DNA of 64,000 nt, from NCBI RefSeq assembly GCF_001660485.1, contig NZ_CP013979.1:2232001-2296000 (forward strand), written 5' to 3'. This DNA is from Agromyces aureus (GTDB taxonomy: Bacteria > Actinomycetota > Actinomycetes > Actinomycetales > Microbacteriaceae). Position numbers and translations under genes: made by a program. Shown here in pieces: positions 1 through 64,000 of the stretch (its first letter is position 1; each line of letters begins with the position of its first letter). The notes under the pieces are model-generated. The model worked only from the letters and a program-made list of their open reading frames with translations, was not told the origin of the DNA and searched no databases.

Positions 1-1
1 C

Positions 2-181
2 GGAGCCGGAGCCGATCCGACGCTCATCCGGGCCGCCGCGAACGCCGCCACGGCGTCCGCGGCCACGGCCGCCGGCGGCTGGGCGCTCGCCGGCGTGGAA
101 CGCGGCGATCTCGCCGCCGAGGTGGCGCGCGCGGTCGCACCCGTGTGCCGCGGGTTCGCGCCGGTCCTCGATGCTCCCTGA
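2..181 (+). CDS. 3' end of an unidentified gene (partial)
   Basis: An open frame enters from the left edge and stops with TGA at 179-181, leaving 59 C-terminal residues that are alanine-rich, apparently helical and without a motif I recognise. It converges on the beta-glucosidase gene, whose stop codon lies about 57 bases downstream on the other strand. Codon use (G/C in nearly all third positions) supports real coding sequence. The family cannot be named from this fragment. Confidence 0.5.
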   Translation, partial: GAGADPTLIRAAANAATASAATAAGGWALAGVERGDLAAEVARAVAPVCRGFAPVLDAP

Positions 182-237
182 CACCCGACGGCCCCGGCTC
201 CCTGGTGCGCCTCGACCCGCGTCGGCCTCGACCCGCG

Positions 238-1731
238 TCAGGCCGGCGACACCGCGTTCGCGGCGATGACGTCGGAGAAGAACCCGGCGCTGGCCTTCGG
301 CATCCGCTCCTGCGTCGTGAAGTCGACCGCGACGATGCCCCAGCGCTGCGCGTAGCCCTCGGCCCACTCGAAGTTGTCGAGGAGCGACCACACGAAGTGC
401 CCGATGAGCGGCACGCCGTCGTCGATGGCTCTCGCAGCCTGCTGGAAGTGGGTGCGCAGGTAGTCCACGCGGTACGGGTCGTCGATCGTGACGGCCGGCA
501 ACGGGTCGGGCATGCCGTTCTCGGTGATCAGGATCGGGATCGGAGGGTAGTCGTCGCGCAGGCGGGTGAGGACGTCGTAGAGGCCCTCGGCCCGGATCTG
601 CTGCCAGGTCGCGGCCGAGGTCGGCGCGATCTCGACGGTGTTGCCGTTCGGATCCACGCCCGTCACGCCGTAGTACTGGATCGCGAGCAGGTCGCACGGT
701 TCCGAGATCACCTCGAGGTCGCCGGGAAGCTGCAGCGCCTCGAATGCCGTCGCGTCGGCGGGCAGGGAGCCCGGGTACGGGCCGATCGCGTCGGACGGAT
801 AGCTGCCGAGCAGCACGGGGTCGAGGAAGAGCCGGTTCTCGCTCGCGTCGACGCGCTCGGCACCGCCGGTGGCATCCGGATCCGTCGGGTACGCGGGCAG
901 CAGGTTCAGCGCGATGCCGATGCGACCCTTCGCACGGGAGGCCCGGAAGGCCTGCACCGCGAGTCCGTGCGCGAGCAGCTGGTGGTGCACGGCGGCCGCC
1001 GCGGCATCCGGATCGGTGAGCCCGGGGGCATGCACGCCGAACCAGTGGCCGACGAACGCGTGGGTCTTCGCCTCGTTGATCGTGAACCAGTCGGCCTCGA
1101 CGTCGCCGAACGCGTCGAAGGCGATGCGCGCGTACTCGGCGAACCGCGCCGCCGTCTCGCGGTTCCGCCAGCCGCCGGCGTCCTGCAGCGCCTGCGGGAG
1201 GTCCCAGTGGAACAGCGTGATCGCCGGGCGGATGCCGCGGCGCACGAGCGCCTCGACGAGCGCTCGGTAGTGGTCGACGCCCGCCTGGTTCACCGGGCCC
1301 GACCCGGTCGGCTGGATGCGCGACCACGAGATCGAGAAGCGGTACGCGCCCACGCCGAGATCGCTCATGAGGTCGGCGTCGGACTCGTACCTGCGGTACT
1401 GGTCGGCACCCGGCTCGCCGTTCGCGCCGCCCCTGATGTTGCGCTTCACCGCGGCGAAGGTGTCCCAGATGGACGGCCCGCGTCCGTCGACGTCCGTCGC
1501 GCCCTCGGCCTGGTACGCGCTGGTGGCCGTGCCCCAGACGTAGTCCGGCGGAAACGGCATCGGATCGGCGGGTGGCTTCCACGGCGCGGGCGCGGCCGCC
1601 GAGGTCGCGGAGCCGGCCGGGTCGGGCTGCGCGGTGCACGCGGCGAGGGCGACGGCGATCGCGGAACCGCCGAGGGCGATGAATCCGCGGCGCGCGAGCG
1701 TGGTCGCCGGGAGTGCGGGGTGGTCGGTCAT
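238..1731 (-). CDS. Exported family 1 glycoside hydrolase (beta-glucosidase), predicted Tat lipoprotein
   Basis: 497 residues when started at the ATG at 1731, preceded by a GGAG-type ribosome site. GH1 signatures are clear: WGTATSAYQAEG near residue 66, the acid/base glutamate in WFTINEA (about E220) and the nucleophile in ITENG (about E404), with WSLLDNFEW near the end. The acid/base motif reads NEA, not the usual NEP. The N-terminus has a twin arginine (R14-R15, RRGF), a hydrophobic stretch and a lipobox LAAC with C32, so I infer Tat export and lipid anchoring, uncommon in GH1, which is mostly cytosolic. It would release glucose from beta-glucosides outside the cell. A perfect LacI-type palindrome lies 63 bases upstream, suggesting repression relieved by a cello-oligosaccharide. 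Upstream in-frame codons back to 2184 run across that palindrome and the T-box and were not used. Confidence 0.88.
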   Translation of the reverse strand: MTDHPALPATTLARRGFIALGGSAIAVALAACTAQPDPAGSATSAAAPAPWKPPADPMPFPPDYVWGTATSAYQAEGATDVDGRGPSIWDTFAAVKRNIRGGANGEPGADQYRRYESDADLMSDLGVGAYRFSISWSRIQPTGSGPVNQAGVDHYRALVEALVRRGIRPAITLFHWDLPQALQDAGGWRNRETAARFAEYARIAFDAFGDVEADWFTINEAKTHAFVGHWFGVHAPGLTDPDAAAAAVHHQLLAHGLAVQAFRASRAKGRIGIALNLLPAYPTDPDATGGAERVDASENRLFLDPVLLGSYPSDAIGPYPGSLPADATAFEALQLPGDLEVISEPCDLLAIQYYGVTGVDPNGNTVEIAPTSAATWQQIRAEGLYDVLTRLRDDYPPIPILITENGMPDPLPAVTIDDPYRVDYLRTHFQQAARAIDDGVPLIGHFVWSLLDNFEWAEGYAQRWGIVAVDFTTQERMPKASAGFFSDVIAANAVSPA

Positions 1732-1793
1732 CGGCGCTCCGGAGTTCGTCGTCGAAGTCGTCCGCCACGAAGGCGGTGCGTCGGATCCAGCCG

Positions 1794-62172: not shown

Positions 62173-62217
62173 GATCACGGCGAACTCGGTTCCGGCCGCG
62201 GGTCGCTTCGGCGTGGG

Positions 62218-62223
62218 TAAGAT
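62218..62223 (+). promoter_or_regulatory. -10 element of pafB-pafC, leaderless
   Basis: TAAGAT ends 7 bases before the GTG at 62231. A RecA-NDp-type (PafBC-dependent) -26 element was looked for and not convincingly seen. Confidence 0.45.
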
Positions 62224-62230
62224 CGCTCCT

Positions 62231-63256
62231 GTGACCGGCGGCGAGCGAAGCAACGTGAAGATCCCGGTCGAGGACCGCTTGTTCAGCCTCGTCCTCGCGC
62301 TGCTCGCGACCGAGACCGGCCTGCTCAAGGCCGAGATCCTCTCGACCGTGCGCGGATATGCCGAGAAGTACGACCCGCACGGTTCCAACGCCAACCTCGA
62401 GCGGCAGTTCGAGCGCGACAAGGACGAGGTGCGCGAGCTCGGCATCCCGCTCGAGACCGTGGAGTCGCCCGATCGCCCCGGTGACAACCAGGCGCTGCGC
62501 TACCGAATCCCCAAGGGAAAGTACGACCTGCCCGACGAGGTGCGCTTCACGCCCGACGAGCTCGCCCTGCTCGCCCTCGCCGGCGAGGTGTGGCGCGGAG
62601 CGTCGCTCTCGGAGGACTCCCGACGCGCGCTCACGAAGATCCGCGGACTCGGCATCGAGCCGCGCGAACCCGTCATCGGCTACGCGCCGAGACTCCGAGT
62701 GCGTGAAGCGGCGTTCGAGCCGCTGCGCTCGGCGCTCGATCGCCGGCAGCGCGTCCGGTTCGCGTACCTCAAGCCCGGTGAGACCGCCCCGCGCGAGCGT
62801 CGGGTCGACCCGTACGCCGTCGTGCTGCACGAGGGCCGCTGGCATCTGCACGGCCGCGACGTCGACGCCGACGGCCTCCGCACGTTCCTCCTCTCGCGCA
62901 TCGTCGGCAAGGTCGACGTCATCGCGGGCGCCACGTTCGCCCCGCCGGTCGAGGGCGTCCAGGACCGCATCCTCGCCGAGCTCGACGAGCTGCGCCTCAG
63001 CAACGTCGCCGACCTCGCCGTCACGGCGGGCAGCGACGCCGAGGTGCGCCTCGGCAAGCGCGCGGTGCTCGGCGATGAAGACGCCGGTGTGATCCGATTG
63101 CACTACACGGACGTCGCGGTCTTCGCCGACGAGCTCGCGGCCTACGGCCCCGAGGTGCGCGTGCTGAATCCCGCCGATCTCCGCGACGCGGTGCGCGATC
63201 GGCTGCGGCTCGTGGCCGAGACGCATGCCGCACGCGAACCCCGAGGAGCGCGATGA
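62231..63256 (+). CDS. pafB: WYL-domain transcriptional regulator PafB
   Basis: 341 residues from GTG at 62231. An N-terminal winged helix (DRLFSLVLALLATETGLLKAEILSTVRGY) precedes a WYL domain with RVRFAYLKPGETAPRERRVDPYAVVLHEGRWHLHGRD pattern and a WCX C-terminal extension. With PafC it forms the heterodimer that activates DNA-damage genes independently of LexA. The start is set by the -10 element; ORF begins at 62213. Its stop overlaps pafC by ATGA, as usual for the pair. Confidence 0.92.
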   Translation: MTGGERSNVKIPVEDRLFSLVLALLATETGLLKAEILSTVRGYAEKYDPHGSNANLERQFERDKDEVRELGIPLETVESPDRPGDNQALRYRIPKGKYDLPDEVRFTPDELALLALAGEVWRGASLSEDSRRALTKIRGLGIEPREPVIGYAPRLRVREAAFEPLRSALDRRQRVRFAYLKPGETAPRERRVDPYAVVLHEGRWHLHGRDVDADGLRTFLLSRIVGKVDVIAGATFAPPVEGVQDRILAELDELRLSNVADLAVTAGSDAEVRLGKRAVLGDEDAGVIRLHYTDVAVFADELAAYGPEVRVLNPADLRDAVRDRLRLVAETHAAREPRGAR

Positions 63257-64000
63257 CCCAGCGACGCGTGGCACTGCGCGCACCCGACAAGCTCGTCTTC
63301 CTGCTCTCCCTCGTGCCGTACCTCATCGAGCAGCAGGTGGTCACGGTGGCCGAGGCGGCCGCGCACTTCGGGTCGACCGACGAGCAGATCCGCGACGCGG
63401 TGCGCCTGATCGCGATGTCCGGACTCCCGGGCGACACCGGCACCTACCAGTCGAACGACCTGTTCGACATCGACTGGGACGCCTTCGAGGAGCACGACGA
63501 GATCGTGATCGTGCACCACGTCGCGATCGACGAGGCGCCGCGCCTGGCCGCCCGCGAGGCGGCCGCGCTCATCGCCGGCCTGCAGTACCTCGCCGCACTG
63601 CCCGAGAACGCCGACAGCAGCGCCCTCGCCTCGCTCACGGCGAAGCTCCGGGCCGGTGCTTCGGCGACGCCGTCCGGCCTGGCGATCGCCGAGCCCGCGG
63701 CGGATGCCTCGCTCACGAGCATCCGCGAGGCCATCACGAGCGGCAGGCAGCTCGAGTTCGACTACCTCAACGCGCGCGGCGAGGGCGGCCGACGCCGCAC
63801 CGATCCGATCCGGATGCTCTCGCAGGATGCCGACTGGTACCTGCAGGCCTACTGCCACACGCGCGAGGACGTCCGCAACTTCCGGGTCGACCGCATGAGC
63901 GAGCTCGTGGTCCTCGACGTCCCGGTCGCAGACCACGGCGACCTCGACGTGCCCGAGACCCTGTTCCAGGGGTCGTCGTCCGATCTCGACGTGGTCGTCG
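63253..64000 (+). CDS. pafC: WYL-domain transcriptional regulator PafC (cut by the window edge)
   Basis: About 249 residues are visible before the right edge; the usual length is about 320. ATG at 63253 overlaps the pafB stop. The N-terminus (KLVFLLSLVPYLIEQQVVTVAEAAAHFG) is the winged helix, and REAITSGRQLEFDYLNARGEGGRRRTDPIRMLSQDADWYLQAYC is the WYL domain. It partners PafB. The C-terminal WCX part lies mostly outside the window. Confidence 0.9.
   Translation, partial: MTQRRVALRAPDKLVFLLSLVPYLIEQQVVTVAEAAAHFGSTDEQIRDAVRLIAMSGLPGDTGTYQSNDLFDIDWDAFEEHDEIVIVHHVAIDEAPRLAAREAAALIAGLQYLAALPENADSSALASLTAKLRAGASATPSGLAIAEPAADASLTSIREAITSGRQLEFDYLNARGEGGRRRTDPIRMLSQDADWYLQAYCHTREDVRNFRVDRMSELVVLDVPVADHGDLDVPETLFQGSSSDLDVVV

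Follow-up and report, generated by a model that had tools for sequence, protein, structure and literature searches.

Uptake drives the accumulation of DNA uptake sequences (DUS) in a genome. In the Neisseriaceae these are short, non-palindromic words of 10–12 nt (for instance GCCGTCTGAA, which the minor pilin ComP recognizes); they occur about once per kb on both strands, form head-to-head hairpin pairs and vary across the family in dialects with a fixed core. The uptake signal sequence (USS) of the Pasteurellaceae, which has AT-rich flanking parts, is a further genome-wide word with terminator hairpin pairs. PMC7811141 names two Gram-negative families in which uptake sequences are known; PMC3630211 gives eight dialects surrounding a fixed CTG core in the Neisseriaceae, and PMC1852404 reports that uptake-signal pairs frequently form terminators in Neisseria and Pasteurellaceae. 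Here, a comparable word is described from a Gram-positive host, Agromyces aureus (Actinomycetota, 70% G+C). It was noticed as the heptamer GGATGCC/GGCATCC (the 7-mer) in a 64-kb stretch of DNA (G000:C1:2232001-2296000, hereafter the window) within the single 4,373,124-bp contig of this genome. The 7-mer belongs to a longer word, CGGATGCCGCG (the 11-mer), which may be a self-DNA uptake label read by a pilus; a probability of about one half is given to this reading.

The word resembles the DUS of Neisseriaceae in its length, its frequency, its occurrence on both strands, its head-to-head hairpin pairs and its dialects, and is here denser between genes. Unlike DUS, it includes one dialect with a palindromic core, and the candidate machine is an Flp/Tad rather than a type IVa pilus. 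With the USS it shares the genome-wide occurrence and the terminator-like hairpin pairs, but neither sequence resemblance nor AT-rich flanks. HIP1 (GCGATCGC) of cyanobacteria is likewise very abundant in coding and non-coding DNA and changes its spelling in some strains, and the palindromic-core spelling of some Microbacteriaceae adds to the likeness; in contrast to HIP1, the main word here is non-palindromic, and the only methyltransferase analysed does not track it. Judged by analogy, the combination of length, abundance, strand symmetry, intergenic density, hairpin pairs and shared-core dialects is most likely the profile of a DNA uptake sequence.

On the two strands of the window GGATGCC occurs 38 + 49 = 87 times and GGATGYC 56 + 65 = 121 times, where the original prediction had counted about 80 and more than 100. 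The window also holds 38 copies of the 10-mer CGGATGCCGC and 28 of CGGATGCCGCG. The 87 copies compare with 15.2 expected from base composition and with 13.5, 16.0 and 23.3 from Markov models of order 1, 2 and 3; at the highest order the expectation reaches 63.3 because the motif's own sub-words inflate the model. Among the 7-mers scored, GGATGCC takes first place at order 2 (of 4,066) and at order 3 (of 4,105), and second place at order 1. In the whole genome of 4.37 Mb there are 2,746 + 2,787 = 5,533 copies, one per 790 bases and about equal on the two strands, as compared with 194 + 203 of the reversed control word CCGTAGG, and the 10-mer CGGATGCCGC occurs 2,591 times (592 per Mb). The enrichment is genuine and larger than first claimed.

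A sample of 464 kb, consisting of the window and 20 stretches of 20 kb, shows that GGATGCC is the core of CGGATGCCGCG. The strongest 10-mers are GGATGCCGCG (243 copies, 6.6 expected) and CGGATGCCGC (268, 8.0 expected), and the 11-mer is found 57 times in the sampled non-coding DNA against 0.4 expected; these order-2 Markov expectations were derived from the same stretches that were counted. In non-coding DNA each one-base substitution of CGGATGCCGCG is rarer than CGGATGCCGCG itself; C at position 9 (13 against 0.2) and T at position 7 (11 against 0.2) are tolerated best. G follows GGATGCC in 76% of the 591 sampled copies, in agreement with the original observation that G is the usual next base. 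The genome thus carries, as is typical of uptake sequences, a word of about 9–12 nt on both strands in at least 1,000 copies. The sites of FokI (GGATG) and SfaNI (GCATC) are contained in it; the conserved word is longer than these sites and its 3' half varies.

Within genes, the word is independent of codon preference. Genes were predicted with a simple caller based on open reading frames and codon scores, whose uncurated models are unsuited to the low-GC genome G177. In 383 predicted genes GGATGCC was observed 471 times, while 100 codon shuffles gave 163.4 (s.d. 9.3), and CGGATGCCGC 200 times against 16.9 (s.d. 3.5). GAT makes up 14.5% of all Asp codons but 132/147 (90%) within CG-GAY-GCC, and GCA 6.5% of all Ala codons but 125/185 (68%) before TCC with a preceding G, bearing out the earlier remark that the motif forces these codons.

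Outside predicted genes the 7-mer is denser than inside (2.12 and 1.16 per kb, respectively). Between convergent genes its density reaches 4.48 per kb, between co-directional genes 2.64 and between divergent genes 1.92, and two gaps longer than 1.5 kb hold only 0.39 copies per kb. Neighbours less than 45 bp apart are oriented head-to-head in 29 of 42 cases (p 2.5e-9 against one in four), and 19 of these 29 close pairs lie in non-coding DNA. As in known uptake sequences, pairs may form hairpins: two in the window are predicted to fold between convergent genes. The pair at 7826-7866, taken with 5 flanking bases per side, gives a perfect stem of 23 bp (-47.2 kcal/mol) between ndk, which ends at 7789, and the next gene (7892-8518, minus strand); the pair at 25253-25271 lies between genes at 24664-25227 (plus) and 25319-26434 (minus). 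It is proposed from this arrangement that paired copies could double as gene-end hairpins. In window coordinates, the copies of the 11-mer and the pairs they form are:

1000-1010, minus strand, CGGATGCCGCG
1229-1239, plus strand, CGGATGCCGCG
2917-2927, minus strand, CGGATGCCGCG
4752-4762, plus strand, CGGATGCCGCG
7826-7866, head-to-head pair, 11-mers at 7826-7836 (plus) and 7856-7866 (minus)
8621-8631, plus strand, CGGATGCCGCG
14636-14646, minus strand, CGGATGCCGCG
21794-21804, minus strand, CGGATGCCGCG
23063-23073, minus strand, CGGATGCCGCG
23906-23916, minus strand, CGGATGCCGCG
25253-25271, head-to-head pair with predicted hairpin (-25.4 kcal/mol with flanks), 11-mer at 25253-25263 (plus)
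26417-26427, minus strand, CGGATGCCGCG
29299-29309, minus strand, CGGATGCCGCG
30075-30085, minus strand, CGGATGCCGCG
30885-30895, plus strand, CGGATGCCGCG
39851-39861, minus strand, CGGATGCCGCG
43110-43137, head-to-head pair within a predicted gene, 11-mer at 43110-43120 (plus)
45404-45414, minus strand, CGGATGCCGCG
48809-48819, plus strand, CGGATGCCGCG
50525-50559, tail-to-tail pair within a predicted error-prone polymerase gene, 11-mers at 50525-50535 (minus) and 50549-50559 (plus)
52569-52579, minus strand, CGGATGCCGCG
54492-54502, plus strand, CGGATGCCGCG
58410-58420, plus strand, CGGATGCCGCG
59133-59150, perfect 18-bp palindrome CGGATGCCGCGGCATCCG within a predicted gene, overlapping 11-mers at 59133-59143 (plus) and 59140-59150 (minus)
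61106-61116, plus strand, CGGATGCCGCG

Spelling changes between relatives, which like the longer word and the hairpins go beyond the original prediction, follow the pattern of uptake-sequence dialects in that all of them share a core, GGAT. Relatives use GGATGCCTCG, GGATGCCCG, GGATGCG or GCGGATCCG, the last with a palindromic core. Among members of the genus, GGATGCC mostly continues with G; G004, G037 and A. agglutinans prefer T at this place and G054 prefers C, and CG usually comes next. The word of G022 is GGATGCCCG (20 against 2.8 expected), and further favoured spellings are GGATGACGG in G005, GGATGTCGCG in G065, GGATGMCCGG in G066 and GCGGATGCG in G087, while the sampled stretches of G076 and G073 gave no favoured spelling. 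Relatives rich in GCGGATCCG carry the palindrome CGGATCCG, which in Microbacterium sorbitolivorans occurs 32 times against 2.1 expected. In a search of 199 family genomes GCGGATCCG reached 1,230, 1,356 and 1,264 copies in three genomes of g71, 1,315 in G280 (g121) and 939 in G267 (g6). Within genus g121 the two spellings have opposite counts: CGGATGCCGC occurs 774 times in G223, 1,102 times in G330 and 58 times in G280, whereas GCGGATCCG occurs 1,315 times in G280 and 199 times in G223 (G330 was outside that search). Spellings therefore replace one another.

Individual copies turn over as well. The nearest relatives by GyrA among the records searched, from which nearer kin may be excluded, are Agromyces sp. 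NDB4Y10 and A. agglutinans (86%). In ungapped aligned parts of the dnaA-gyrA region 10/21 copies of the A. aureus word are retained in NDB4Y10 and 2/12 in A. agglutinans, which uses a different dialect; for one-base neighbour words the figures are 15/37 and 10/22, and for all 7-mers 33% and 37%. At alignment columns 5501 and 9443 the three Agromyces carry different spellings. The original prediction had taken the pattern for selection on DNA rather than on protein. The failure of codon shuffling and the higher intergenic density speak for a cause at the DNA level, which may be selection or biased spread by recombination; single copies are not extra-conserved.

Sampled genomes outside the family stay at background. 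In all 59 same-genus genomes searched the 7-mer is enriched, exceeding the reversed control about 6.5- to 18.5-fold, whereas genomes from other families of the order lie at about 1.1 to 3.9 times this control. The 10-mer CGGATGCCGC ranges from none (two genomes) to 2,591 copies in 249 family genomes; among 246 genomes of the phylum, those outside the family have at most about 25 per Mb. In a scan of 76 of 80 named loci, mostly of about 22 kb (four shorter than 12 kb were left out), the 7-mer is enriched about 3.5-fold or more in two Agromyces, several Microbacterium (e.g. M. hominis, 36 against 5.8), Microcella alkalica, Salinibacterium sedimenticola and Leifsonia Root4. At most about two-fold enrichment was seen in Curtobacterium, Leucobacter, Mycetocola, two Frigoribacterium records out of three (the remaining one, a MAG, has 15 against 4.3), Micrococcaceae including Arthrobacter, Sinomonas and Kocuria, and likewise some of the Microbacterium (nymphoidis, halophytorum, ASV81 and sorbitolivorans). 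The same scan recovered what we take to be DnaA boxes and parS-like words and thus has a positive control. Since counts in other genomes rely on one or two fixed spellings, genomes with other dialects are scored as word-poor.

A plausible uptake machine is suggested by gene content. The genome of A. aureus encodes ComEC and two tad clusters, whose gene names were assigned by layout and Pfam: tad-1 (C1:1801574-1806424) with TadA, TadB, TadC, an Flp-like protein, TadE, TadF and TadG, and tad-2 (C1:3359179-3362400) with TadA, a fused TadB/C, Flp, TadE2 and a TadG-like protein. For tad-1, Pfam recognizes T2SSE, T2SSF, TadE and Tad in five of seven proteins and nothing in the Flp-like protein and TadF; three tad-2 proteins gave T2SSE, a sub-threshold TadE and DUF4244. 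The same layout is found in Micrococcus luteus, where, according to the available text of PMC4322843, transformation requires both tad clusters. Neither PMC4322843 nor PMC8467076, both on M. luteus, uses the term 'uptake sequence'; the genome of M. luteus itself was not examined for a word. In the named Micrococcaceae loci the 7-mer reaches at most about twice its expected count.

The TadE profile PF07811 was searched in 32 and then in 80 further genomes, which were classed as word-rich by a self-chosen threshold of at least 60 copies of CGGATGCCGC or at least 200 of GCGGATCCG per Mb. Two or more TadE are present in 47/54 word-rich and 20/55 word-poor genomes (109 genomes, p 3e-8; G005, G017 and G047, with 2, 2 and 3 TadE matches, had no 10-mer count and were left out). 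The second set of 80 alone gives 29/33 and 20/47 (p 3e-5), and one genome per genus, in 75 genera, 30/33 and 15/42 (p 7e-7); with thresholds of 40 and 100 per Mb the latter comparison yields p 5e-5 and 4e-5. Word-poor G073, G213, G085 and G205 each have a single locus with TadE, which is of the tad-2 type; other tad-1 genes were not searched. A type IVa pilus was rejected as the tracking machine: its marker PilM, found in 48/80 genomes, is absent from the word-rich G004, G017 and G047.

Taken together, these data are consistent with the following mechanism. A surface receptor on an Flp/Tad competence pilus would bind the word on free double-stranded DNA, so that DNA of the same or a close species would preferentially enter via ComEC and then recombine. 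Because incoming DNA would be enriched for the word, biased recombination would multiply its copies in all places that can accommodate them, i.e. between genes, at synonymous positions and in variable protein stretches. Drift in receptor specificity would be followed by the spelling of the genome and could give rise to dialects. The cells would accordingly be competent and prefer DNA carrying the word, and a tad-encoded minor pilin would be the receptor. Of the three functions named in the original prediction, an uptake-type tag fits best the long degenerate word, the dialects, the hairpin pairs and the TadE association. A tentative generalization is that Microbacteriaceae mark their own DNA with a label that is specific to the species and comes in dialects, and that an Flp/Tad-type competence pilus reads it; this system would have arisen independently.

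Several observations weigh against an uptake label. Single copies in the dnaA-gyrA region are conserved no better than other words, and apart from the close pairs copy spacing is approximately exponential (CV 1.06), i.e. near-random. ComEC is present in 80/80 family genomes, word-poor ones included, and is therefore no discriminator. In the TadE association kinship was handled solely by taking one genome per genus. Seven word-rich genomes fall short of two TadE (G022, G066, G267, G158, G161, G268 and G306): G066 has none, and the single TadE locus of the GCGGATCCG-rich G267 is of the tad-2 type. One TadE each is also found in G062 (7-mer 9 times the control, 10-mer below threshold) and in G087 with its GGATGCG spelling. 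Conversely, a sample of seven word-poor genomes that hold two TadE, with stretches of G073 and G076 for comparison, yielded another spelling in G191 and a weak one in G150 (GGATCC, 48 against 18.7), while no alternative spelling was found in the sampled G151, G168, G186, G075 and G177. PilM also tracks the word, though less well than TadE (rich 26/35, poor 20/42, p 0.015; 77 of 80 searched). Within g121, comparison of TadE, TadF and TadG of G223 and G330 with those of G280 revealed no tad-1 minor pilin that is clearly switched. Finally, no report on uptake or transformation in Microbacteriaceae is among the literature matches listed, in a search confined to open-access literature.

A separate feature of tad-1 in G223:C1 (L228 6395-9401) is a gene resembling, by eye, a serine recombinase or integrase, which adjoins TadE where TadA-TadC would be expected; TadC is left as a remnant with a match of only 33 aa. 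This may be an insertion of a mobile element into a competence cluster, comparable to the comK prophage in Listeria.

The strongest alternative is a methylation word of the HIP1 type, since HIP words change their spelling and a palindromic core is present in one of the dialects found here, but it is considered unlikely. Part of the word would be marked by a methyltransferase, and mismatch repair or signalling linked to this methylation would create and keep the copies. In the available text of PMC4390886 HIP1 is a genome-wide word linked to orphan methyltransferases, and exceptional strains have changed its spelling; in the present family GCGGATCCG is used by some members, and PF01555 methyltransferases are encoded in 30/30 genomes searched, one apparently orthologous in 21. 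The main word CGGATGCCGCG, however, is not a palindrome, words that differ from it by one base show no depletion relative to the Markov model (GGACGCC, 164 against 170 in the 464-kb sample), and the conserved enzyme is also present in the word-poor G073, G213 and G085. In an alignment of 28 PF01555 sequences, of which 21 were used (five misoriented and two other enzymes were left out), similarity ignores dialect: the enzymes of G280 and G152, which share GCGGATCCG, are 63% identical, and that of word-poor G085 is 79% identical to the A. aureus enzyme. The conserved methyltransferase was hence rejected as the factor that tracks the word. Only PF01555 was searched (not C5, D12 or type I enzymes, with neighbouring genes unexamined), and the explanation is therefore just weakened. 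The A. aureus enzyme itself (G000:C1:299952-300695, L199) has a weak likeness to CcrM models and is conserved across the aligned Microbacteriaceae, with identities of 57-60% in G017 and G022 (Agromyces) and 84-95% in G008, G047, G004 and G005. A restriction site avoided by phages was likewise rejected: GGATGCC is at chance in the Microbacterium phages Min1 (16 against 12.8) and Quenya (10 against 10.4), two phages whose hosts' spelling was not checked. The restriction or methylation site of the original prediction is thus disfavoured.

Still less probable is that the word serves as an evenly distributed site to which a nucleoid protein or another chromosome-organising protein binds. The 20 sampled stretches do hold a rather even 16-38 copies per 20 kb, comparable with 87 in the 64-kb window, and the two commonest spellings have a dyad-like CGG-AT(G)-CCG shape. 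The even spread supports the chromosome-organisation signal considered originally, but no restriction to origin or terminus was seen, and dialect switching and loss among related genera would be unusual for a structural protein. The proposed check for strand bias gave a slight replichore skew of the 7-mer (284 against 223) and little for the 10-mer (121 against 109) in the 20 stretches, uncorrected for gene strand and with the origin assumed at base 1 and the terminus half-way. A recombination signal of the Chi type, recognized by a nuclease that acts at double-strand breaks, would also be a short word on both strands, common throughout the sample, and might account for the slight 7-mer skew; the 10-mer lacks it, hairpin pairs are to our knowledge no feature of Chi, and RecC (PF04257) is absent from 32/32 family genomes, on which ground RecBCD-Chi was rejected (AddAB and AdnAB were not searched), leaving this a very improbable explanation. 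Least credible is a passive product of codon or dipeptide preference or of mutation such as C deamination. It would be in line with the conservation of single copies at the level of other words and with the depletion of GGACGCC in predicted genes (145 against 370.5 in codon shuffles), which fits synonymous replacement by GGATGCC. Codon and dipeptide bias was rejected, as codon shuffles yield far too few copies and non-coding DNA is denser than coding DNA, and so was deamination of GGACGCC, which is near its Markov expectation both in the whole sample and in non-coding DNA (19 against 21.8). With CGGATGCCGCG at 57 against 0.4 in the same non-coding DNA, loss of one neighbour therefore cannot supply the word. 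Moreover, spellings vary between relatives of similar G+C.

Other sequence collections gave few matches. Searched in IMG/VR with the 18-bp palindrome, 0 stretches matched, which means viral contigs without the palindrome and shows nothing further; a plasmid search with the doubled palindrome gave 26 records with a best listed E-value of 8e-3, one being a Microbacterium plasmid. In the open-access literature two papers, by title on an aptamer and on rice, contain GGATGCC or a longer form of it as a whole word. Matches for 'DNA uptake sequence' with Actinobacteria concern, by title, Neisseria, M. tuberculosis, pathogens and pili in general (including PMC6370729), and none was found on overrepresented uptake sequences in Actinobacteria or on a Microbacterium uptake sequence and transformation; with the search limited to open access, absence is unproven.

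Several other words and genes were noted in passing. In G168 (L244-L246), which lacks a GGATG word, a repeat based on CTTCGACAGGCTCA is present, with TGAGCCTGT found 15 times against 0.39 expected in 60 kb, mostly in non-coding DNA; G080 has the similar words TTCCCTGAGC and CTGAGCCTGT. The palindromic GTCTCGAGAC is strongly enriched between genes of A. aureus (TCTCGAGAC 26 against 0.83 expected), and related words are TCTCGAAACC/GGTTGAGGAG in G067 and TGGTCTCGAG/GGTCGAGGAG in G088. In predicted genes of A. aureus GAGCAGCA/TGCTGCTC occurs 144 times against 40.0 in codon shuffles, CTGCTCG-type words are enriched in many relatives, including those without the GGATG word, and CGATCG is depleted in the A. 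aureus sample (917 against 1,465 expected). At 49716-54864 of the window (minus strand), the gene harbouring the tail-to-tail pair encodes an error-prone DNA polymerase of the DnaE2 type (NF004225, 1450 bits); its neighbour is weakly similar to Y-family polymerases, below model cut-offs, and the two are a possible ImuB/DnaE2 mutagenesis cassette.

The confinement of uptake sequences to two Gram-negative families has left unexplained why such labels arise. If the word of A. aureus is an uptake label, it would constitute an uptake-sequence system outside Neisseriaceae and Pasteurellaceae, with a receptor from a different pilin class, and would point to that receptor in the little-studied Flp/Tad competence pilus. 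As an independent case in high-GC Gram-positive bacteria, with several spellings within one genus, it would allow receptor drift to be tested against genome spelling, and at least one lineage would have changed between a non-palindromic word and a word with a palindromic core. Should the label serve another function, it would still be a strong genome-wide signal without an owner. In the case of an uptake label, the proper word on donor DNA might render Agromyces and Microbacterium transformable.

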